DNA from: an uncultured Nitrospira sp.
Lineage (GTDB): Bacteria; Nitrospirota; Nitrospiria; Nitrospirales; Nitrospiraceae
Direction of reading: 5' to 3'
Assembly: GCA_902500995.1 (NCBI GenBank)
Contig: CABVSR010000029.1
Coordinates: 1 to 44,183, forward strand
DNA length: 44,183 nt
Both the position numbers and the translations under genes were made by a program. A model generated the notes under the pieces. It was given only the letters and a program-made list of their open reading frames with translations, was not told the DNA's origin and did no database searches. Positions 10,262-44,183 of this stretch are shown here, piece after piece. Every line of letters starts with the position of its first letter. The stretch's first letter is position 1.

Positions 10262-12145
10262 TCAAATCTCCAGCACCAATCCGATCTCCACCGCTTGTTC
10301 CGACGGCAGGTGGAAGTAGGAACTGGCGCGCTGAGTATTGCGCGACAACACCACAAAGAGCTTTTCCCGCCAGATCGCCATGCCCGGCGTAGGTGTGGCG
10401 AGAAACGTAATTCTGCTCAGGAAAAATGGGGTGTCCTGTATCCGTAGCACATGCCCATGCGTGGCCAGCTGCTCCAGGACGCGAGGAATATCCGGGGTCT
10501 CCATAAATCCGCAGCGGGCGATCACTTGAACAAGATTGTCCTGAATAGCCGTGATCTCCAAAGGCGCTGTCGCCGGAACAAACGGTACATGCTCCGTGCG
10601 AACGGTGAGCAGATACACGCGTTCGTGCAAGGTTTTGTTGTGCCGGACGTTTTGCAACAGGGCCGGCGGCGTGATGTCGGGATGTTGCGAGAGGAACACG
10701 GCTTGACCCGCCGTCCGGCATTCCACCTTCGCTAGGACTTCAGCGGCGAATTGGCGCAACGGTGGAAATTGCACCCGCAGGTGCTCGGCGACGATGGCGC
10801 GACCTCGTGCCCAGGTGCTCATCACCGTGAAGATGGCCGCCCCGAGCAGCAGCGGAAACCACCCGCCGTGAGGGATCTTCTGGGCATTCGCGAGAAAAAA
10901 CGCGAGGTCGATCAACAGGAACGTCCCGACCGCCAGGATCGCCGGCGGCGCGCTCCAGCCCAAGTGGTGGCGGGTGACACGATACATGAGCAGCGTCGTA
11001 ATGATCATGGAGCCGGAGACGGCAATGCCGTAGGCCGCGGCCAGGTTGGTGGACGAGCCGAACGACAGGATCAGCCCGACGGTGCCGATGAACATCAGCC
11101 AGTTCAGCAGGGCGAAATAGATCTGTCCATGTTGCTCCGCGGAGGTATGCGTGATCCGTAAGGGCGGAAGATAGCCGAGCTGCACCGCTTGCAAGGTCAA
11201 CGAGAAGGCGCCGGACAACATGGCCTGCGAAGCGATGATGGTCGCCGCCGTCGCGAGCGCGATCAGCGGGTACAGCATCCAGTCCGGGGCCAGATGATAA
11301 AAGGGGTTGGCAAGAGCCGCCGGGTCTCGCATGAGAAGCGCGCCTTGGCCGAAATATTGAAGCAGCAATGCAGGCAGCGCCACGGCAAACCAGCCGAGTT
11401 GAATCGGGCGGCGGCCGAAATGCCCCATGTCTGCGTACAGCGCTTCGGCTCCCGTCAGCACCAGAAACACACTACCCAATACCAGAAAACCGATTCCCGC
11501 ATGGTGAATGAGAAAGCCGGCGGCATACCACGGATTGGCGGCGATGAGCACGGCGGGGGTGTGGATCACGCTCTGCAGCCCCAGCAGAGCCAAGGCGGCG
11601 AACCAGACAAGCATGACCGGACCGAAAATACTGCCTAACGTGCCGGAGCCACGGCGTTGGATGGTGAACAGCAGCGCGACCAGTGCGACCGTCAGGGGCA
11701 GCACGTAAGGGGTGAAGAGGTCGGTCGCCAACGTCAGCCCTTCCACTGCGCTCAGGACGGAAATGGCCGGCGTGATGATGCCATCGCTGTACAGAAAGGC
11801 GACGCCCACCAGGCCCAGCGAGACTACCAGGCTCAGCCCTTTGCGGAGGTTGACGGGATGGGCGCGTTGGCTGAGCGCCATGAGCGCCAGCATGCCGCCT
11901 TCCCCGTCGTTATCGGCCCTCATCACGAAAAGGAGATACTTCACCGTCACGATGAGCACGAGCGACCAGACGATCAGCGAGACGATGCCCAGCACGTTGT
12001 CCGGCGTGACGGCGAGTCCATGTGATTCATGGAAACATTCGCGCAGGGCGTAGAGCGGGCTGGTGCCGATGTCTCCATACACCACACCCATGGCAGCCAC
12101 GGTGAGGGAGGCGGAGGCCGGTGCGTTGTGCGGCTGTTTCGGCAT
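10262..12145 (-). CDS. kup: KUP-family potassium uptake protein
   Basis: The 627-residue length and sequence fit the KUP/HAK/KT family of proton-coupled inner-membrane K+ transporters. The N terminus carries the family motif GVVYGDIGTSPLYALRE, with about twelve hydrophobic segments following (e.g. PAISVLSAVEGL, TGAEALYADMGHFGRRPIQ, GQGALLM). A roughly 170-residue hydrophilic C-terminal domain ends the protein (VFLSQHPDITPPAL, FFLSRITFLATPTPGMAIWREKLFVVLSRN). The ATG at 12145 has no strong ribosome-binding site. It is read divergently from tex, convergent with nothing, and appears to be a stand-alone gene. Confidence 0.97.
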   Translation of the reverse strand: MPKQPHNAPASASLTVAAMGVVYGDIGTSPLYALRECFHESHGLAVTPDNVLGIVSLIVWSLVLIVTVKYLLFVMRADNDGEGGMLALMALSQRAHPVNLRKGLSLVVSLGLVGVAFLYSDGIITPAISVLSAVEGLTLATDLFTPYVLPLTVALVALLFTIQRRGSGTLGSIFGPVMLVWFAALALLGLQSVIHTPAVLIAANPWYAAGFLIHHAGIGFLVLGSVFLVLTGAEALYADMGHFGRRPIQLGWFAVALPALLLQYFGQGALLMRDPAALANPFYHLAPDWMLYPLIALATAATIIASQAMLSGAFSLTLQAVQLGYLPPLRITHTSAEQHGQIYFALLNWLMFIGTVGLILSFGSSTNLAAAYGIAVSGSMIITTLLMYRVTRHHLGWSAPPAILAVGTFLLIDLAFFLANAQKIPHGGWFPLLLGAAIFTVMSTWARGRAIVAEHLRVQFPPLRQFAAEVLAKVECRTAGQAVFLSQHPDITPPALLQNVRHNKTLHERVYLLTVRTEHVPFVPATAPLEITAIQDNLVQVIARCGFMETPDIPRVLEQLATHGHVLRIQDTPFFLSRITFLATPTPGMAIWREKLFVVLSRNTQRASSYFHLPSEQAVEIGLVLEI

Positions 12146-33285: not shown

Positions 33286-33837
33286 ATGATGACGCCAAAA
33301 CAATTTCGAAGTTGCCGGGAGCAGTTGGGGCTCACGCAGGAGCAGCTGGCCGAGGCCTTGCGAACGACGCGCGTGTCAGTGGCTCGTTATGAATCAGGGA
33401 TGCGCCGTATCGGCGGGGCGGTTGAGGTCGCGATGACTCAACTGGCGGGCAAAACGCAGGTGCTCATGGCAGGCATGGTGGCCGCCGGGGTGCCCATCGA
33501 ACCGGTGGCCCAATCCGAGTGGGTTGATGTGCCTCCAAGCATGGTGCGAGCCGGGGAGACCTTCGCGCTCCGGGTCAAAGGCGATTCGATGATCGAAGAC
33601 GGGATTCTTCCCGGCGACTTGATTGTGGTCAGGAAGCAGGCGACTGCGCGGAACGGCCAGACGGTGGTGGCCTTGGTCAACGGGCACGCGACGATTAAGA
33701 CCTATTACAAGCGGGAGCGATCCGTCGAACTTCATCCCGCCAATGCCGCAATGAAGCCGTTGCTGGTCACACCCGCAGATGAATTCGCCATCGAAGGGGT
33801 TCTCGTCGGGGTGATCCGTCATTGCGACAAATCATAA
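33286..33837 (+). CDS. XRE-HTH/S24 LexA-like self-cleaving repressor
   Basis: The 183-residue protein has an N-terminal XRE HTH (about 5-50: FRSCREQLGLTQEQLAEALRTTRVSVARYE) and a C-terminal LexA/CI-type S24 peptidase domain. The catalytic Ser is in VKGDSMIEDG (Ser101) and the Lys in GHATIKTYYK (Lys138). A probable cleavage site Ala67-Gly68 lies in MVAAGVPIE, as in LexA. The architecture is that of phage CI-type rather than LexA-type repressors, but it may serve as an SOS-like switch. ATG 33286 and 33289 are both possible; a perfect palindrome abuts the start. Two small genes follow on the same strand, probably its operon. Confidence 0.93.
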   Translation: MMTPKQFRSCREQLGLTQEQLAEALRTTRVSVARYESGMRRIGGAVEVAMTQLAGKTQVLMAGMVAAGVPIEPVAQSEWVDVPPSMVRAGETFALRVKGDSMIEDGILPGDLIVVRKQATARNGQTVVALVNGHATIKTYYKRERSVELHPANAAMKPLLVTPADEFAIEGVLVGVIRHCDKS

Positions 33838-34841: not shown

Positions 34842-34965
34842 GCAGGATGCGCAAAAAGGCCGCCAGCAAGGCCGCAGCGAATGAAGAGGCGAATCGTACT
34901 TGTGCCGTACGGTGAGCCTCTGAATGACGCGAGAACGCCGCTGGCGGACTTTTTCCGCATCCTGC
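34842..34965. repeat. MITE/REPIN-like repeat, copy B
   Basis: 124 bp bounded by perfect 10-bp inverted repeats GCAGGATGCG (34842-34851) and CGCATCCTGC (34956-34965); about 26 of the outer 30 bases on each side pair. Its reverse complement aligns with copy A throughout, including GTTCTCGCGTC, GAGGCT, CCTCTTC and TGCGGCCTTGCTGG. It ends 20 bp before the next ATG, so it forms the upstream region of the haem protein gene. Confidence 0.83.
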
Positions 34966-34985
34966 TAGGGCAAGAAAGGAGGACT

Positions 34986-35747
34986 ATGCGCATATACCTG
35001 TTGTGTTTCGTCGCAGTATGGTGCCTGTCGCAGGCTGTGAGTGTGGCAGCGGAAGATACGGACTCCGACGTGTCCGAGACCGCGCGACTCCTGGCCATAT
35101 TGCTCGATTCCGGCCGGGTAGCGATCGGGCGCAATCAAGCGCAGATCAATGACCCATCAGGCGCGCAGACGGCATTTACGCAGGAACTCTTTGCCGCCCA
35201 GACCGCAGGCATCTTTAAAGAACGTACCGGACATAATGTGAATGATTTGCCCAACGCCAGCATGCCGGCTTTAGCGAAACGATTATTGGAGCGCTTATTT
35301 CTGGAGAGTAAAAAGACCGTGGAGAGTTACCAGCCCGTGCTCAATATGAAAGGGCTGAAGTACAAGGGGCTTATTCCTGCCACGTTCGGCACCGAAACGG
35401 CCACGCGGTTTCAGAAGTGGTCCGGGGTCTATCTGAAGCAAACCGCGCCTGAGCACCTTCTACGCAATGCCAACAACAAGCCCGACTCGTTTGAAGCGGA
35501 ACACATGAAGGAACTGAGCGAGGCCTCTTTCCAAGGAAACAAAGGAACGGTCATCAGCAAGATCGACGGCGGCAACAGCGTGCGGGCGCTGCTGCCGCTC
35601 TTCTATGAGAAGACCTGTTTGAGTTGCCATGGAGAACCCAAAGGCGAGCGGGATATTTCCGGCTATTCGAAGGAAGGCGGGAAGGAAGGTCAACTGGGCG
35701 GGGTGATCAGCGTGAAAATCGACATGAGCCAACTCGCGGGCCGGTAA
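34986..35747 (+). CDS. Tll0287-like (DUF3365) haem-domain protein
   Basis: From ATG 34986 with AAGGAGG (34976-34982) upstream, the product has 253 residues. I reject the longer frame from 34881 because it runs through the repeat. A signal peptide ends near VAA. The mature protein has the DUF3365 layout ending in a c-type haem motif CLSCH (211-215) and GVISVKIDMSQL. KYKGLIPATFGTETATRFQKWSG is typical of the family. Such periplasmic domains bind haem c and are proposed redox or gas sensors; here no kinase or cyclase is fused, so it is a soluble stand-alone version. Confidence 0.9.
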   Translation: MRIYLLCFVAVWCLSQAVSVAAEDTDSDVSETARLLAILLDSGRVAIGRNQAQINDPSGAQTAFTQELFAAQTAGIFKERTGHNVNDLPNASMPALAKRLLERLFLESKKTVESYQPVLNMKGLKYKGLIPATFGTETATRFQKWSGVYLKQTAPEHLLRNANNKPDSFEAEHMKELSEASFQGNKGTVISKIDGGNSVRALLPLFYEKTCLSCHGEPKGERDISGYSKEGGKEGQLGGVISVKIDMSQLAGR

Positions 35748-36060: not shown

Positions 36061-36394
36061 CAGGATTACCCTGCAGCCTGTGAGAGTTCCAGCCTCTAAA
36101 TGAAATAACCTCCCGTACGTTGAGCTCTTTGTTGAGAAAGATCTTCGCAAACATTCGACTCTTTCCCGGTCGTATCACCTGTCGCTGAGGAATACACTTC
36201 TCGGAGTGGGCCGTTGCGGATAGTTTGCTCGGCCATGCGAAGGTGTCGGAGACGGCGTGGCTACCAGCCATGGTACTTGATTCCGGCCAGTAGCGATGGG
36301 ACGAATCAAGCCGAAGGCGGTGGTCTCACATCGCCGGCCCGATTAATACGATGATCGTGTCTATAAGTAGTACAGTTTAGTGTCGCCTGTTCAC
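36061..36394. other. Gene-free stretch
   Basis: About 330 bp with no supported gene. It ends at the IS3-type remnant; GTGTCGCCT at 36380-36388 recurs in direct orientation at 36730-36738, close to both ends of the remnant. Confidence 0.4.
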
Positions 36395-36861: not shown

Positions 36862-38703
36862 TTACTCCGGACTGATAGGACAAGACATCCTAGCTTCAGA
36901 GATATTACTTTTTGCAAAGGTCCGAACGGATTCCGATGGAAGTGAGCCATTAGCGTTCCAATAATAGCGCAGGTCTTCCCCCGGACCGTGAAGATAGGAA
37001 CACTGGACTACAAAGTATTTATTTTCTTCAAGTGCCTGTTGCACATCGTCAGGCAATTTGATCCTTGTGTATGTGCGGTCTGGAGTGAGATCCCTGAGAG
37101 CGAGCGCGGAAATCCTGACTGACCGCAACGCCTTACGCCCACTATCTTTGTTGACCCATATAAAGATCTCTTCACCGTCGGATGGCACCGGGAAATCGGG
37201 AGAAAAGGTCGGCGGAACTCCTTCGTAAGCTCGTTCAATAAAGGCACCGTGTCCCGATTCTCCCCCTATCTTCTCCGTGTAGGGGTATGAGCCATTGACA
37301 GGTTTCGCAGGCTCATACGCATCGGAAGAGTAATCGTGAGTGACATGTCGATTTAGATTATCCATAAAACGGACTATGCCTGGCTTTCCACAGGCCTCTG
37401 GAGAGAGCAGTACCTGAAGAGACGCGTTGGCTTTCTCTATTCTTTCTCTCTCTTTCTGCGATTCCTCCAGCATGATAGCGCCCTTATTCAAGATGTCATT
37501 CCAGAGACCAGGACGACGAGTCACTCGCTCATTAACATCCTTCTGAGAATGCTTTAACGCGGCTACGATGTTTTTGCCGAACGTAGATCGGAAGGCTTGC
37601 TCGTATCGACGCTCCATATAGGACGTGTCTGTAATCTTTTTAGTAACCGTCGTCATGGTGCGCGTGAGGGGATTCCACTCCTGGTGATCGAAAACTTCGA
37701 CGGTCTCCTCCACACGGATGCGATCGCTAAAGGATTTGTGACATAATTTGTCATATCTAGACATGGCATTCCTGTACAGGATGATCGGAAGATCTTGAAT
37801 CTCGTTTCTCTTAGAAAGTTCAACATGACGACCTTCATAGATCATGAGGAAGAGCCTCTTGTGCTCATTGTCAATTCCCGAGAGTGATAACTGGCCGTCA
37901 GCCGTGACAGTCGCTTCGGCAAGCTTTTGTTCGGCTGCTTCTTCAGCAGCGCGCCGCTGTGCTGTGGACTCCTCTGCCCGCTTTTTCCATCTATTTCGAA
38001 ACTCCTCGTCTTTGGCCATCTGTTGAGGCAGTGCCTCACGCATAGCTCGAAGTGCCGCGAGGCTTTCATGCCGATACATTGTGTAAGTAAGCATCCCCTC
38101 AGGATTGATCATAACGTTCATCATGCTGACTGGTTGTTCAGGCTCTGACATTGATTCGTCTTCTCTATACTCCTTCATCCACTGATCGATTCTCACGCCT
38201 TTAATGTAGTGATCAATATGAACTCTCTTGAGCGATTTGCACCGAGCCTTTAAAACTGGAAGTATTTCTTGTTCGAATCGTTGCGCATAGATCTCATCGT
38301 CTTTGATGACAAAATCGGCATCGACTTTATAGATCTGCTTCACCCCAGCTTCATAGTCTTGGAAGCACCAATTGCCTGAATAAGAAGACTTTCCGTAAAG
38401 CTCATAGAGATCTGTTTCAAGAAGCTTTTCTCCCGTGCCACGGATAGGATCGGTTGTTTGAGCGGGCGGCTTCAACGGTCCTCTACGCGGACCCTCACGA
38501 TTAGCCGCTTGACCTTCATTCGTTGATCGCCTGTTAGGTGCACCCGAGGCTGCCACACGCGGCTCCTGCCCCAGGGGCTTTTCTTCCCTTACAGCCTTCT
38601 CTATGGGCGGTTTAGGTGGCGAATCCGGAGCGCGCCTGTGCCACGCCACGCAACTTGATATGTCCAATGTACAGAACATTGATGCGACAATTAGCCAGCG
38701 CAT
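36862..38703 (-). CDS. Unrecognised 613-residue exported or membrane-anchored protein
   Basis: The protein begins MRWLIVASMFCTLDISSC with a short hydrophobic stretch that could be a signal or lipoprotein-like leader (Cys18). A Pro/Arg-rich low-complexity linker (25-90) follows, then a mixed globular region. Features include QDYEAGVKQIYKVDADFVIKDDE, an Ala/Glu/Arg-rich helix (about 235-270: RWKKRAEESTAQRRAAEEAAEQKLAEA), and a C-terminal part with RYYWNANG. Base composition is more AT-rich than the mod locus. I recognise no family and no catalytic motif. It stands alone between an IS remnant and an integrase piece, so it may be foreign cargo. The long uninterrupted frame supports a real gene. 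Confidence 0.75.
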   Translation of the reverse strand: MRWLIVASMFCTLDISSCVAWHRRAPDSPPKPPIEKAVREEKPLGQEPRVAASGAPNRRSTNEGQAANREGPRRGPLKPPAQTTDPIRGTGEKLLETDLYELYGKSSYSGNWCFQDYEAGVKQIYKVDADFVIKDDEIYAQRFEQEILPVLKARCKSLKRVHIDHYIKGVRIDQWMKEYREDESMSEPEQPVSMMNVMINPEGMLTYTMYRHESLAALRAMREALPQQMAKDEEFRNRWKKRAEESTAQRRAAEEAAEQKLAEATVTADGQLSLSGIDNEHKRLFLMIYEGRHVELSKRNEIQDLPIILYRNAMSRYDKLCHKSFSDRIRVEETVEVFDHQEWNPLTRTMTTVTKKITDTSYMERRYEQAFRSTFGKNIVAALKHSQKDVNERVTRRPGLWNDILNKGAIMLEESQKERERIEKANASLQVLLSPEACGKPGIVRFMDNLNRHVTHDYSSDAYEPAKPVNGSYPYTEKIGGESGHGAFIERAYEGVPPTFSPDFPVPSDGEEIFIWVNKDSGRKALRSVRISALALRDLTPDRTYTRIKLPDDVQQALEENKYFVVQCSYLHGPGEDLRYYWNANGSLPSESVRTFAKSNISEARMSCPISPE

Positions 38704-38741: not shown

Positions 38742-39218
38742 TTGCCAAGACCGCCCTTCAAGCAGATTGGTGAGGTCTGGGATATCCGCCGCGCGTCTCA
38801 TTACCATGAAGAATGTGTGAATGCCACGAAGAATTTCAGGGGGAAGGTCACCGAGCTGGAAAACATGTCGAAGAATGGTGATGAGCTACCTTGGGTATTT
38901 CTCTCACCCGAAGGTAAGCGATGGGAGGAAAGGAATCTACGTCGAGGATGGTATAGCTGCTTGGTGAGAGCAGGAATGCGGAGGATCAGGTTTCATGATC
39001 TCCGGCACACCTTTATCTCTCTGTCGATTGAGCAGGGAGCTCATCCCAAGTACATTCAGGAGCAGGCAGGGCACAGTAGTATCCAAGTGACAATGGATAC
39101 GTATGGGCATCTGTTCCCCAATCGGGATGGAGGATGGACCGATAAACTGGACGATGTGATGCCGGAAAGGGAAACCGCACCCCCGCGCACCCTGCAAAGG
39201 TGTTGGTACAGGAGCTGA
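38742..39218 (+). pseudogene. Tyrosine integrase, C-terminal remnant
   Basis: The frame encodes the catalytic C-terminal part of a phage-type tyrosine recombinase: WVFLSPEGKRWEERNLRRGW, then HDLRHTFISLSIEQGAHPKYIQEQ (His-x-x-Arg), AGHSSIQVTMDTYGHLFP (Gly-His and the nucleophile Tyr). The N-terminal DNA-binding half and the first catalytic Arg are missing, and the start codon would have to be TTG 38742, so this is a truncated remnant. It ends only 20 bp before the tRNA 3' fragment, the usual arrangement of an integrase next to its attachment site. Confidence 0.85.
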
Positions 39219-39238
39219 GTCGTAAACCGCTGGAAATT

Positions 39239-39283
39239 TGGTGGCGGTGACCCGGATTGAACGGGTGACCCGCGGCTTATGAG
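39239..39283 (-). tRNA. 3' fragment of tRNA-Met(CAU), probable attachment site
   Basis: Read on the minus strand, 45 nt comprise an anticodon loop CTCATAA (anticodon CAU), the 3' anticodon strand GCCGC, a T arm ACCCG-TTCAATC-CGGGT, acceptor strand CACCGCC, discriminator A and CCA. The 5' half (acceptor, D arm, 5' anticodon strand) is absent: the bases preceding the loop (AATCAA) do not pair with GCCGC. A tRNA 3' half beside an integrase remnant is the signature of an integrated element's att site. Not a functional tRNA. Confidence 0.85.
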
Positions 39284-39765
39284 TTGATTAAGTAGTAGTG
39301 CTATTGCAGGGATTTCCTTGTATAAACAGAGAATAGGTAGGCAGGAGGGGACAACTAAGCCCCTCCTGTCCGCGCTTTTCATACCCGCTTGATACCCAGA
39401 GGCCGCAGATCATGACCCATCTGACTACGGATCAGATGGTTATAGGTAGAAGCATCTGCCCCCGGGGGTATCCTTGGGACGACCTAGCCCCCCGTCGCCG
39501 GTGCGGGTACCGGTACCAACAGTTACGGTCGCTTAAAGCATTGGGGGGGCTTAGTGGTCGAACGCTACTAGTGAATGATTGGAATTTTTTGGAATCAACA
39601 AAAAGAGGCTCCTACGCAACAGCTAGACTTGTTTGGTGATTGGCTTAGTAATTGGCGCGGGCGGTTGGGGGCAAGAGCTGATGAATGACATGAATCAGAT
39701 GATACAGTGGAACCGCCTGCTAGAACGTGGGAGTTGACGAGAAGGAAATCTTTGAGAAAGCGTAT
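39284..39765. other. Gene-free stretch after the att-like site
   Basis: About 480 bp with no supported gene; a 75-residue frame at 39412-39639 has no family features or ribosome-binding site. It contains a strong terminator-like hairpin at 39342-39368. Confidence 0.45.
39342..39368 (+). terminator. Terminator-like hairpin
   Basis: Perfect 9-bp arms CAGGAGGGG and CCCCTCCTG with a 9-base loop, followed by TCCGCGCTTTTC. GC-rich stem with a short, displaced T-run: a plausible intrinsic terminator for plus-strand transcription from the integrase side. Confidence 0.5.
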
Positions 39766-40711
39766 ATGGCTACAGTAATCCCAAATCTCACTTTTGTAAT
39801 GGATGCTTCAGGCCGCTGTTCACACGAACCGGGTAGTCCCCTCGTTTTTGCCGGGGTTGCTATAAAAACTTCCGCCGTCGATTCCACGCGCGAGGCCTTG
39901 CTGGTTTCAACAAACGGTATTCTCTCAAAATGGTCTCAAGCGAATACGCCAGAAGAAGCACAGGCAATCCTTCGTTTTATTGCGAAGAAACAATTGTACA
40001 TATATGTAAGAATTATATGGAAAACAGGCGAGGCGTGGTCAAAGCATTTTGATGATGGACAACAAATATACGAGAAGGGCGTATTCAAAGCTCAAGAGCC
40101 AATGCCATACGCGAAACCCATGAACACATTTAAGTCACATATGTTTGGTATGACTGGATCTGGTCTAGCGGGAATGTACCTGGGCCGTCATATTGCGAGT
40201 TTACCGGGAAAAAATATGCCAGTCAGAACTATCAATATTACGGAAATACTGGATTCTGATGTTCAGGGACAAACAAACCAAGAGATTTGCCGTAACGTTT
40301 TGATAGGTGCTGGGGGGGGATTTGCCGCAGACAGTACAGAGTACGAGAATAAAGCCTATTTTTGATGTGTTAATCAAGACTGAGCAGGAAGAGCCGTTGC
40401 TTTTATTGGCGGATCATGTGGCGGGTTATTTCTACTCTGACAGGATGTACGGCCAAAGGGAAGAGAACAGTCGAGCCAGCATGTTATATGCCGCTAAGGA
40501 GAGCGTGTTGAAAATTCCGGAGTATTGTTTGATGGTTCAGGAAGGCCCATTCAACGAAGATTATTTGCTATCTAAAGAAATATTTGAGCATGTAATTCCT
40601 CGTAAGCAGCGTGAGAAGTTACGTGCCAAACTCATTGAACATGCTTTTGCTAAATCTGATGATGATTTCTTTACGGAACCTTCCAAAACCCTGCTTCCAG
40701 AAAGCTCTTGA
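39766..40711 (+). pseudogene. DUF3800-like protein, frameshifted at a G8 tract
   Basis: Two overlapping frames encode one protein. The first (ATG 39766, or GTG 39727) gives MATVIPNLTFVMDASGRC and continues to VLIGAGGG, then ends at 40365. The second (from about 40307 to 40711) continues with RIKPIFDVLIKTEQEEPLLLLADHVAGYFYSD. The DASG start and the ADHVAGYFY element resemble DUF3800 proteins (DESG near the N terminus and LADxxAG near the C terminus); this assignment is by pattern. The frames join at GGGGGGGG (40312-40319): seven G would restore a single product of about 313 residues. It is either mutated, phase-variable or a sequencing error. Confidence 0.65.
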
Positions 40712-41528
40712 GACCGGTGGGCGTTACAATCGCTATAGGTCTAACAAACTCCTGATACAAAATACCTGCAATGTCCTTATGCTGGTTCGAACGTTCGCGT
40801 GAATGTAGTAGACCGGGAGACTGATGGTATTGATACCACAACCAATCAACGGCTTCGACTCTTAGCTTGTCAGCAGCCATCTTTCCCGTATCTGGGGCTG
40901 CGGTGGAAAGTTCGTAATTTGTGGCCCACAGGTTTGCAGTGGTTAATATGACAGGGACAAACGCGGCATGACTGCCGGGTGCAATCAAGAAAGGGTGTTT
41001 ATAGAAAAATTCAATCAAGCCATTTAGTTCCCGGCAAACCTGCGTTGCAGCCTCCTCGATCTGACCCCGTCCTTTTGCGTTGGAATCTCCTTTTGACGGA
41101 TGCTTAACATCCAAAGCTATTTGATAGAGTGCATTTGTTTGGTGCAATGTAACGACTTGAGAACGGAGAACGCCGAGCCCAATGTCTATGATGTTCTCCG
41201 CATATACTGCAGTTGAAAGCTTATTGGGAGATTTGAACGCAGTCTTTGCAAAGCATCAATTAGATAGAGCTGGATTGCTGCGTTTGCACTCGAATACTAG
41301 ATACAGGTTTCTCTGCTCATTGGTATATATAAAGTCTATACGGGTGTGGACACCCTGGACTTCCACAGGAAGCTCAGGTGCCCAAGGTCGCCAATCAACA
41401 GTGAAGACAGATGACACATTGATTCGATTTATCTCGGCCACCATTGTTTCTTGAAACAAATAACCGTGTTTGTTTAACTCCTCGCTGAAGGAAGTAGCTA
41501 CCTGCTCGGGTGTCTCTTTCGCGCTCAT
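40671..41528 (-). pseudogene. PD-(D/E)XK-like nuclease gene with in-frame TGA
   Basis: The frame opens at ATG 41528 (TTG 41549 possible) and is interrupted once by TGA at 41256-41258. It then continues in the same frame to 40671, giving about 285 residues if read through. The N-terminal part contains RIDFIYTNEQRNLYLVFECKR: Asp, then Glu-x-Lys, the core of restriction-endonuclease-like folds. After the stop the sequence reads CFAKTAFKSPNKLSTAVYAEN and continues with a helical C-terminal part (QIALDVKHPSKG). The simple reading is a nonsense mutation. It converges with and overlaps the preceding frameshifted gene's end by 41 bp. Confidence 0.65.
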
Positions 41529-41549
41529 TGTGGTTAGTTCTCCCAACAA

Positions 41550-42249
41550 TTATCGGGGGCAATTTTTCGCTAACCGATACCCCACGGATTCGGCTTCTGT
41601 TGGACTTGTAAACATCTGCCGAGTCTTTGGCGCAGTTCCCGTATAGCTTGGGCAGTCAGGACGATGATAGATCCGTGTCTTCTTGTTGCCGATGATCGGG
41701 GCCGAGTCTGGGTCATGGGCAACGGATGAGGGATTGGCCCCCGCTGGTAACATACGGACTTCTTGCTGCCGTGGGTGCCGGATCTCCCAGGGGGGCACAG
41801 GGTCCGGGTCTGCCCATAACCCCCGTTTAGCTAGCCTAGCTTCAGCCTCTAGCTTCTCTAGTTCCTCATCCTTAGAGTACTTCCGGCCACCAAGCTAGGC
41901 CTAGTTTAACTAGCTCATAGCTTATATTCTTGTGTTCAACCAGGACATCAGCCACTGTTCTACCGTGACGGTCTTTGCTGTAGGGCCGTACAGTGGCTTC
42001 TTTCCCGAAGGCTAGGCTTGAGGTCAATTCCTTAGCCTTGGTTCCGAAGGCTTGTTTCTTTTCTGGGCAGTCGATGCCGTTCAATCTAATCCGTTCTGCT
42101 TGGCCGTTGTGAAGAACGTCTATCGTGTCGCCGTCAACGATGCCGACGACTTTTCCAGTGAAACTTTCTGCAGCAACGGAATAAGCGAAGAGTAGAATAA
42201 CTGCGCTAACGAGTGGGCCAATTTGTGTTCGAAAGCTGCGGACAGTCAT
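41550..42249 (-). pseudogene. Secreted thermonuclease (SNase) with C-terminal Ada-type zinc motif, frameshifted
   Basis: ATG 42249 starts a signal peptide (ending near VAA) and an SNase domain: VVGIVDGDTIDVL, RIRLNGIDCPEK, KDRHGRTVADVLV, YELVKLGLAWW. The frame then hits a stop at 41872. In another frame the expected continuation appears: RKYSKDEELEKLEAEARLAKRGLW, then IIGNKKTRIYHRPDCPSY...GYRLAKNCP, an Ada-type metal-binding tail commonly fused to SNase. Compared with the usual AWWYRKYS the gene lacks about two bases near 41884, which a homopolymer error would not explain. Its start overlaps the previous gene's stop (ATGA), so it is the second gene of an operon. Confidence 0.8.
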
Positions 42250-42815
42250 TTAGTCTTTAAATACTCTAGCCCCCGGTCAGCCACTGACTTCAACTGGCTG
42301 AGCGAATCCATAGTTAAAATTGCGTTCGCCCCACCTATACGTCCTGACTTGGTAAATGCCATCGCCTCACCTTTGTCGTGGTAAAAACCTACCTGGAAAT
42401 CCGCCTTCGTAGACAGAAGCACTTCCGTATTTTCTCGAGATTGGCCTTGCCATTCCTTCGCAAGCGAGGACATATAGGCAATGCCTTTTGATAAAGCCTC
42501 CACCTCTTCAAGGTCTAGGAGAGACGTGTGCTCCTTTTCCAGTCTTCCGCTTCCCGTTACCTCTATTCTCAAACCCCGTTTTTTGATATTGGGGTCCGAC
42601 GGGTCGGAGAGAATCAAAGCTTCTATACTCAATCGTGTACCATGCTGCCCAGCAACAGCCCCTACAGGATGGAACTCCTTCATAACAATGTGTCCTTTGG
42701 TCTGCATGAGAGCTTCTAGTTCTGTCGAGGAGTGTTTGGGCTGAGATTCATTGCCCTGGGCATATGCAGTTGTGGCAAGGAGAAGGAGTGCTATCGAAAT
42801 ACGGCAAAGGTTCAT
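42246..42815 (-). CDS. Small exported protein of unknown family
   Basis: From ATG 42815, with GGAGG 5 bp upstream, the product has 189 residues and a signal peptide (ISIALLLLATTAYAQG). An upstream extension to 42929 is open but lacks support. The mature part is polar and probably mixed alpha/beta: IVMKEFHPVGAVAGQHGTRLSIEALIL, LRIEVTGSGRLEKEHTSLLDLEEVEAL, FQVGFYHDKGEAMAFT. I do not recognise a family. Its stop overlaps the SNase start (ATGA), so the two were co-translated. Periplasmic. Confidence 0.78.
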   Translation of the reverse strand: MNLCRISIALLLLATTAYAQGNESQPKHSSTELEALMQTKGHIVMKEFHPVGAVAGQHGTRLSIEALILSDPSDPNIKKRGLRIEVTGSGRLEKEHTSLLDLEEVEALSKGIAYMSSLAKEWQGQSRENTEVLLSTKADFQVGFYHDKGEAMAFTKSGRIGGANAILTMDSLSQLKSVADRGLEYLKTK

Positions 42816-42876
42816 GCGACCTCCGATGCAATTAAGGGGGTGTCCTTGTCTAAAATGCATTCTAAGTAGACCGCTC

Positions 42877-43200
42877 TTATGGCCGCACCGAGGGGGGTAT
42901 GCTTCGTCCAGTCGTAAATTGGGGGCCATCCGGTTCTAAAATTTGGCCTGGGAGTCTAAGCGCTTCTATGGCTTGATTGGTTTGATTCAACTGATATTGA
43001 ACATTCTTTATGCGGCTCTCAACCTCCTCTAACCGCTTTAGAATCTGTTCTTCTCCGCTGCGTCTTTCTGCCAAGGCTGTCTTAGTTTGCTTATAGACGA
43101 TAATAGCTAACGCAGCAACTACGCTCTCTTTCCAATTATATGATAGGTACTCAAATGCCCATGCGATAAGTCCGATCAAAATGAGAAAAAAGTGTTCCAT
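42877..43200 (-). CDS. Small membrane protein with coiled coil
   Basis: The 107-residue frame has one to two hydrophobic segments at the N terminus (HFFLILIGLIAWAFEYL, VVAALAIIVY) followed by a heptad-like coiled coil (about 50-82: EEQILKRLEEVESRIKNVQYQLNQTNQAIEALR). No strong ribosome-binding site precedes ATG 43200. It may be the first gene of the small-protein/SNase operon. The composition suggests a real membrane-anchored protein, but no family is recognised. Confidence 0.55.
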   Translation of the reverse strand: MEHFFLILIGLIAWAFEYLSYNWKESVVAALAIIVYKQTKTALAERRSGEEQILKRLEEVESRIKNVQYQLNQTNQAIEALRLPGQILEPDGPQFTTGRSIPPSVRP

Positions 43201-43473
43201 GAAATTCGTGGGAAGGGTATGCCGACTCTAGATCAGAGTCAATATTGGGCTTCAATTTCTAAGGCTCAGTATCTAACGGAAATTACGATTCGAGGATTTA
43301 TGAAAGGAATCGTATAGGCAGACCATATATGCAAAGGAAACCCCAGGCCGATGGGGATAGGGGCAAGTATTCCATGATGAACAGGGAAAGGAGTTCGCAG
43401 ACTCTTCTTCCGAGGGATAGCACAGACAGTGGCTCTCCCTGCAGAATACGGCCTGTGCGCTGGCTCCGAAGAT

Positions 43474-44133
43474 ATGCGAATACAACCTAACCAAATGCTC
43501 TGCGGTTTCCCGGCTAAACAGATTAGAGATCTTCTGCGGGGGGCTAATCAATTTGTGACAATAGAATACGCAGCCCACGTACTAGGCTGCTCTCCTGAGA
43601 CCGCCCGCGAAGTTATCGAAAGCCTGAAACAAGACGCGTATCTTGAGGGACCCTTGGAAGGGCGGGAATATTGGGAGCTTACGTTGAAAGGCTCTCAGCT
43701 ACGGGCAGCCACTGCGGCGAAGCCTATATCCCGAAAGACAGCGGAACGGCTGGTAAAGGAACTGCTGAGTCGCGTCGGGGAGATAAACGATTCTCCAGAC
43801 TATTTGATGCGCGTTTCTTGTGTGGCAGTCTTTGGAAGCTATCTCAGGGAAGTCGAAGTGTTGAGCGATTTAGATATAGGCTACTGTCTTCAACCAAAAG
43901 CGACAGAACCTGCTGAGCATCAGCGGTTATGGCATGAGCAAATCAAGGCTGAGGAGGTCAATGGGCGTCGATTTGGGAATATACCAGAGAGGGTCTGTTG
44001 GCCTCATATCAAAGTGGTTCAAGCATTAAGGGGGCGTGCTCGAAGTCTAAGTTTGGAACCTCTAGATGGTCTGATTGAGCAGATGCCCCCCGATTTTCGA
44101 TACAAGATTCTCTATGGAGAACTTCTCCCTTGA
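43474..44133 (+). CDS. HTH-nucleotidyltransferase (MNT-like) protein
   Basis: The product has about 219 residues from ATG 43474; GTG 43429 and ATG 43495 are alternatives and no ribosome-binding site decides. The N-terminal part looks like a winged HTH (ANQFVTIEYAAHVLGCSPETAREVIESLKQDAYLEG, then ELTLKGSQL). The C-terminal part has the minimal nucleotidyltransferase motif VAVFGSYLREVEVLSDLDIGY: Gly-Ser followed by the Asp-x-Asp metal pair, and a later basic segment. MNT proteins often act as antitoxins with HEPN partners; none is visible in the 50 bp left. It could add AMP to an unknown target. Position within the island region suggests mobile cargo. Confidence 0.78.
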   Translation: MRIQPNQMLCGFPAKQIRDLLRGANQFVTIEYAAHVLGCSPETAREVIESLKQDAYLEGPLEGREYWELTLKGSQLRAATAAKPISRKTAERLVKELLSRVGEINDSPDYLMRVSCVAVFGSYLREVEVLSDLDIGYCLQPKATEPAEHQRLWHEQIKAEEVNGRRFGNIPERVCWPHIKVVQALRGRARSLSLEPLDGLIEQMPPDFRYKILYGELLP

Positions 44134-44183
44134 CGTTGGTCCCGTAACGAGACAGTCATTAACTAGAACAGAGGGCGTCTTCG

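Follow-up and report, generated by a model that had tools for sequence, protein, structure and literature searches.

Why should half a tRNA gene lie next to the remains of an integrase, and what was inserted there? The question arises at one end of a 44,183-nt stretch of DNA from an uncultured Nitrospira sp. (GenBank assembly GCA_902500995.1, contig CABVSR010000029.1). This whole stretch, hereafter the window, is the entire contig C29 of the genome that we searched (G000; 3.97 Mb, 56 contigs). A first-pass annotation had described a 45-nt tRNA-Met 3' piece on the minus strand, running from the anticodon loop to CCA with its 5' half lost, and had proposed that it marks a relic attachment site, possibly used by two elements in tandem.

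A tRNA-Met(CAU) fragment and its intact source gene

The description of the fragment was accurate in all but its length, which is 46 nt. The minus strand of positions 39239-39284 equals nt 31-76 of tRNA-Met(CAU) at 46 of 46 nt, from anticodon loop to CCA, and the match grows to 47 nt if the A at 39238, after the CCA, is included. As the annotation had anticipated, an intact tRNA-Met(CAU) gene, and with it a second copy of the 45 nt, is found elsewhere in the genome, on contig C2 (G000:C2:262430-262505). This gene scores 64.3 bits against RF00005 and is also called as tRNA-Met by ARAGORN (locus L107); the exact counterpart of the fragment is G000:C2:262460-262505. At up to three mismatches the 45-nt core occurs at exactly two places genome-wide, the intact tRNA on C2 and the window on C29, and a reversed control pattern gave 0 matches in the 3.97-Mb genome. 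Within the window, ARAGORN called no tRNA and Rfam returned no match at gathering score, as expected because only half a tRNA gene is present there. We interpret 39239..39284 (minus strand) as the core of attR of an island, here designated island B.

Gene order in relatives places the chromosome on the CCA side

To place the fragment in its genomic context, the tRNA-Met loci of 27 relatives were taken together with C2, and the window and C2 proteins were placed on them. The backbone order in relatives is acyl-CoA-dehydrogenase-like (presumably, as we name it), mscS-like, tRNA-Met, (Tll0287-like), LexA-like, modC. In G000 the two halves of this backbone are split, one lying on C2 and the other on the window. 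Downstream of the intact tRNA, 19 of the 27 relatives carry a homologue of the window's LexA/S24-type repressor gene (33286..33837, plus strand), within ~3 kb in 15 of these 19 and at 9-15 kb in four (G007, G019, G023 and G024). In G005 the Tll0287-like gene alone was seen, 17 kb from the tRNA. The LexA-like gene is absent from the stretches examined in G002, G009, G010, G011, G018, G020 and G032 (7/27), and those of G002, G010, G011, G018 and G020 cover just 3 bp to 5.5 kb beyond the tRNA. Upstream mscS-like and downstream LexA-like genes were both seen in 8/27, the upstream stretches often being too short to tell. The window's own Tll0287-like gene (34881..35747, plus strand) has a counterpart in G027 whose end lies 70 bp past the intact tRNA.

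Because Tll0287-like and LexA-like genes stand behind the tRNA in relatives, the window's left portion is the chromosomal DNA that should follow the tRNA. The first-pass orientation, with an element on the 5' side of the fragment (to the right) and chromosome on its CCA side, is thus borne out by the LexA-like gene in 19/27 relatives. Comparison with island-free genomes, also suggested at that stage, found the window's left genes directly downstream of an intact tRNA: G027, G008, G001 and others have the tRNA and then backbone genes within ~1 kb. With the intact tRNA on one contig and the fragment on another in a 56-contig draft, the half gene might instead be an unrelated partial duplication or an assembly artefact. 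We find this scarcely credible, as the fragment has the same boundaries as one in G019 (nt 31-76) and its flanks are the expected backbone. Further into the left part of the window, the reading frame at 10262-12145 (minus strand) presumably encodes a KUP-like potassium transporter, an ordinary gene.

Island B probably spans the end of one contig and the end of another

The attL end of island B lies on C2. Immediately adjoining the CCA end of the intact tRNA, and convergent with it, is a 409-aa tyrosine integrase whose reading frame is open throughout and overlaps the tRNA by 22 nt. The protein matches PF00589 over nearly the full length of the domain (E 1.1e-28) and carries a SAM-like N-terminal domain. 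A scan of genome contigs for close relatives of this integrase returned 13 loci, the best at 35-36% over most of the protein. Behind the integrase gene, C2 encodes a glycosyltransferase-9-like protein, a DUF3854/AAA_25 protein that resembles phage primase/helicase families, and two smaller ORFs, and the contig stops 8,697 bp past the tRNA.

The distal part of the island, up to an IS insertion, occupies 39285..44130 of the window, as delimited by synteny, IS ends with AGGG, Pfam matches and a lower GC content. Pfam identifies an Ada-type metal-binding ORF (41550-41798) and a staphylococcal-nuclease-like gene (41872-42249). For most of B's window-side ORFs, neither Pfam nor PHROGs gave a convincing family, and a 212-aa ORF among them has one relative outside its own genome (G111) among the 98 genomes searched.

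No direct overlap was found between the ends of C2 and the window; searching both contig ends in the genome revealed IS ends instead. C2 closes with 55 bases that form the left end of an IS; C20 and C21 carry further copies of this element, which, to judge by its transposase, we assign to the IS3 family. The last 53 bases of the window (44131..44183, minus strand), within which the contig stops, are the right end of the same element, similar to the IS right ends in G000:C20 and C21 and also to C21:1-71. The same four bases, AGGG, stand beside both IS ends, with one copy of this candidate target duplication at 44127-44130 of the window. Given that C2 ends in the left end and the window in the right end of the same IS, both by AGGG, a single IS copy flanked by a 4-bp target duplication probably bridges the two contigs. 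The copies in C20 and C21 have no clear target duplication, and AGGG is therefore a less dependable rule for this IS3-type element. If the contigs are joined in this way, island B would measure ~14.7 kb, with ~8.6 kb on C2, 1.2 kb of IS and 4.8 kb in the window.

The attL arm of B on C2 contains GCGGGTACGAA and GCGGGTACGAT side by side, two adjacent copies that are candidate arm sites. In the window, GCGGGTATGAA (39378..39388, minus strand) resembles these copies and is likewise a candidate arm-type integrase site; the background of the motif is 3 matches at up to two mismatches in the 12,942 bp that form the rest of the island. The ties between the two halves of B are three, namely synteny, the IS ends and the arm motif, and a B-like block in G009 (below) has no window-side homologues nearby. 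That block was considered as independent proof of the unity of B and failed as such, with no window-side genes in the stretch examined.

An integrase relic behind the fragment points to a second element

The integrase remnant noticed in the first pass lies to the left of the fragment. The ORF at 38742-39218 (plus strand) reads towards the CCA end of the fragment and matches Pfam Phage_integrase (PF00589) with an E value of 9.6e-14, over profile positions 84-170 of 172 only. Its TTG start at 38742 is a mechanical ORF start, as homology to the intact integrase begins only at about 38844 and spans 38844-39185. Aligned with residues 267-380 of the 409-aa protein, this C-terminal tyrosine recombinase part has 61% amino acid identity over 114 residues, and the DNA is 80% identical over 122 bp. 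The relic has no N-terminal domain or first catalytic Arg region and keeps what we take to be the HxxR, H and Y stretches. Read past one TGA in frame 1 translation (39219..39260, plus strand), its frame ends in GGGDPD-stop inside the tRNA fragment, an ending that B's intact integrase shares. The window aligns with C2 at 69% from -45 to +347, through the core and 347 bp into the integrase gene.

The C-terminal wreck of a related integrase behind the old tRNA 3' end indicates that another element, here element A, was inserted there. As the relic is convergent with the tRNA, in the same orientation as the intact integrase, its most plausible origin is a second, older element, and the earlier suggestion of two elements in tandem gains support. 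Between the relic and the backbone lies a 613-aa ORF (36862..38703, minus strand) with no convincing family in Pfam or PHROGs. It is present in 2 of 29 genus genomes, the second copy sitting at another place, and is possibly cargo of element A or a later insertion. Backbone similarity starts at window position 36078 (G009), 35789 (G022) or 35759 (G027), so that at most ~3.2 kb beside the fragment is element A or later insertion. No third att copy was found in the window, besides the 46-nt fragment, that would mark the far end of element A, the genome having two copies in total, and no intact A-type integrase was found at tRNA-Met in relatives. In a search of 98 genomes, 26 of which gave a match at E <= 1e-15, the relic's best hits were the integrase of island B (62%) and one in G029 (59%), which adjoins tRNA-Arg.

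Similar stacking is seen among relatives, three of which bear on how many elements were involved. In G019, the intact tRNA is accompanied by a second 46-nt fragment (nt 31-76) 1.8 kb downstream, with A-type arms at both. G011 has the same arrangement with a decayed second copy, detected by alignment alone, and in G003 the intact tRNA is followed by a shorter integrase relic and then the LexA-like gene. Had there been one element only, with the relic a piece of B that was duplicated or left by rearrangement, the relatedness of relic and intact integrase, their shared position behind the CCA of a tRNA 3' end and the lack of a surviving far-end att of A would all be accommodated. However, 61% amino acid and 80% DNA identity are too divergent for a recent duplicate, and G003, G011 and G019 have A-type arms or relics but no B, making a single element very unlikely.

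The order of insertion is a separate matter, because the layout by itself gives no order of A versus B. It would be compatible with entry of element A into the attR of B after B arrived, followed by loss of the far end of A; the 46-nt core of attR may retain the crossover region and would then be a possible target. This sequence of events is nonetheless unlikely, as element A is a fragment with an in-frame stop whereas the integrase of B is fully open, and in G003 an A-type relic comes straight after an intact tRNA, with nothing like island B between it and the LexA-like gene. We infer instead that element A was once complete and is older than B.

Overall, we favor, with a probability of roughly 0.88, assignment of the fragment as the attR core of island B at tRNA-Met(CAU), beside a decayed related element A at the same site. 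Element A, with its related integrase, would have occupied this site earlier and then decayed. A tyrosine integrase would have inserted island B into tRNA-Met(CAU), with crossover somewhere in the 46-nt core; the island's own copy of nt 31-76 would have rebuilt the tRNA next to the integrase (attL, C2), and the old tRNA 3' end would have been displaced to the far end of the island (attR, window). The first-pass term, relic attachment site, is too weak for the fragment, which is attR of an island with an intact integrase.

Further copies and stacking at tRNA-Met across the genus

The 46 nt are matched in 25 of 29 genus genomes at up to three mismatches, and an extra copy without the 5' half occurs in six of the 29 (G000, G002, G009, G010, G019 and G024). 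The CCA side of the extra copy carries the Tll0287-like gene in G002 and G009, an A-type arm in G019 and just a short backbone-like arm in G010; the copy in G002 is the first 46 bases of a contig, with its 5' side outside the contig. In G024 the extra copy lies elsewhere, beside another integrase-like stretch. The first-pass annotation had held that fragments common without integrases would count against its reading. Extra truncated copies do occur in 6/29 genomes, yet that argument is inapplicable as worded; an attR without an adjacent integrase is expected, because the integrase sits at the attL end.

The copies in G009 and G024 are distant from their intact genes. In G009, a single contig, tRNA-Met with the mscS-like gene (L045, C1:3.80 Mb) and the fragment with the Tll0287-like gene (L141, C1:2.70 Mb) are 1.1 Mb apart on one strand, suggesting rearrangement through the island or misassembly. 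In G024, the 46-nt fragment (G024:C1:2051761-2051806, L144) has 2 mismatches and is ~1 Mb away from the intact gene; on its CCA side it resembles the arm behind the tRNA in G018, perhaps reflecting an element in a secondary site.

The 1.8-kb cassettes of G019 (L062) and G011 (L044), between the tRNA and the second copy, contain a 389-aa ORF, and no integrase was detected in them; they may move in trans. One end of the G019 cassette and island B have the GCGGGTACGAA motif in common. A speculative and rather doubtful extension is that tRNA-Met serves as a dock shared across the genus, where one integrase family moves full islands and, in trans, integrase-less cassettes. In that case, stacking and shuffling of such cassettes might be the work of integrases of the B or A type. 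tRNA-Met(CAU) is an insertion point used repeatedly in the genus.

Comparison with known tDNA islands

In the parts of the Islander description used here, tDNA islands comprise an intact tRNA gene, a displaced 3' fragment and an integrase between them; 2083 of 3919 islands use a site in the anticodon region (site A), and 125 tandems of two or more are counted (PMC4383910). Island B shares with them the intact tRNA gene at one end, a displaced downstream 3' fragment in the same orientation, a tyrosine integrase at the tRNA end of the interval and the anticodon-region site (PMC4383910), the orientation and position of the fragment coming from the backbone order of relatives. Unlike those islands as described there, B has its two ends on two contigs, and their join is inferred; if the join holds, ~14.7 kb on one replicon would lie within the Islander size range of 2-200 kb (PMC4383910). 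Relatives also provide the empty site for B, a feature added here to those of Islander.

Islander tandems similarly line up two elements in succession at a single tRNA, and each member needs an integrase and a fragment, whereas element A has a partial integrase and no far-end fragment (PMC4383910). Here the integrase of B is intact and that of A merely a C-terminal relic, and the two copies in the genome leave no tRNA fragment for A, so that the locus is a decayed tandem and not an intact array. Partial tRNA genes left by integrating elements, which also trace later rearrangements, are described in PMC9897764. Those are likewise partial copies at the far end of an island, but the examples considered here are archaeal and the Nitrospira fragment has a second integrase relic behind it (PMC9897764). 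Mx8 and SSV integrases are named as extending across attP (PMC4383910). The integrase ORF of island B also enters the tRNA sequence, with the difference that its 22-nt overlap is wholly within the 46-nt core, so integration leaves the end of the protein unchanged.

Island B is an ordinary, integrase-bearing tDNA island with an older, decayed neighbor behind it. The process is well known and of a textbook class, and no new mechanism is called for. With this assignment, both ends of one island are located in a draft genome and two contigs are probably linked, and the locus illustrates cleanly how stacked insertions can be read from a tRNA 3' fragment together with an integrase relic.

Gene-block exchange and related integrases at other tRNA genes

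The B-like block of G009 (L174, 9239-16542) comprises GT9-like, AAA_25, 122-aa and 322-aa proteins at 75-88% identity; the element bearing it has another integrase, located next to tRNA-Ser. As judged from sequence, this block appears to represent an integrase exchange between islands.

In a set of 29 related-integrase loci, mostly the best one per genome and not a random sample, a tRNA lies within the stretch in 21; 20 of these integrases converge on the tRNA 3' end, and in 10 of the 21 the integrase ORF overlaps the tRNA, by 22 to 89 nt. Where such an overlap passes the crossover region, integration should alter the integrase C-terminus, as for phage Mx8. Integrases at tRNA-His, -Thr, -Val and -Arg (L110-L113, L119, L120 and L132-L134) extend antisense into the tRNA gene or all the way through it, by 44-89 nt.
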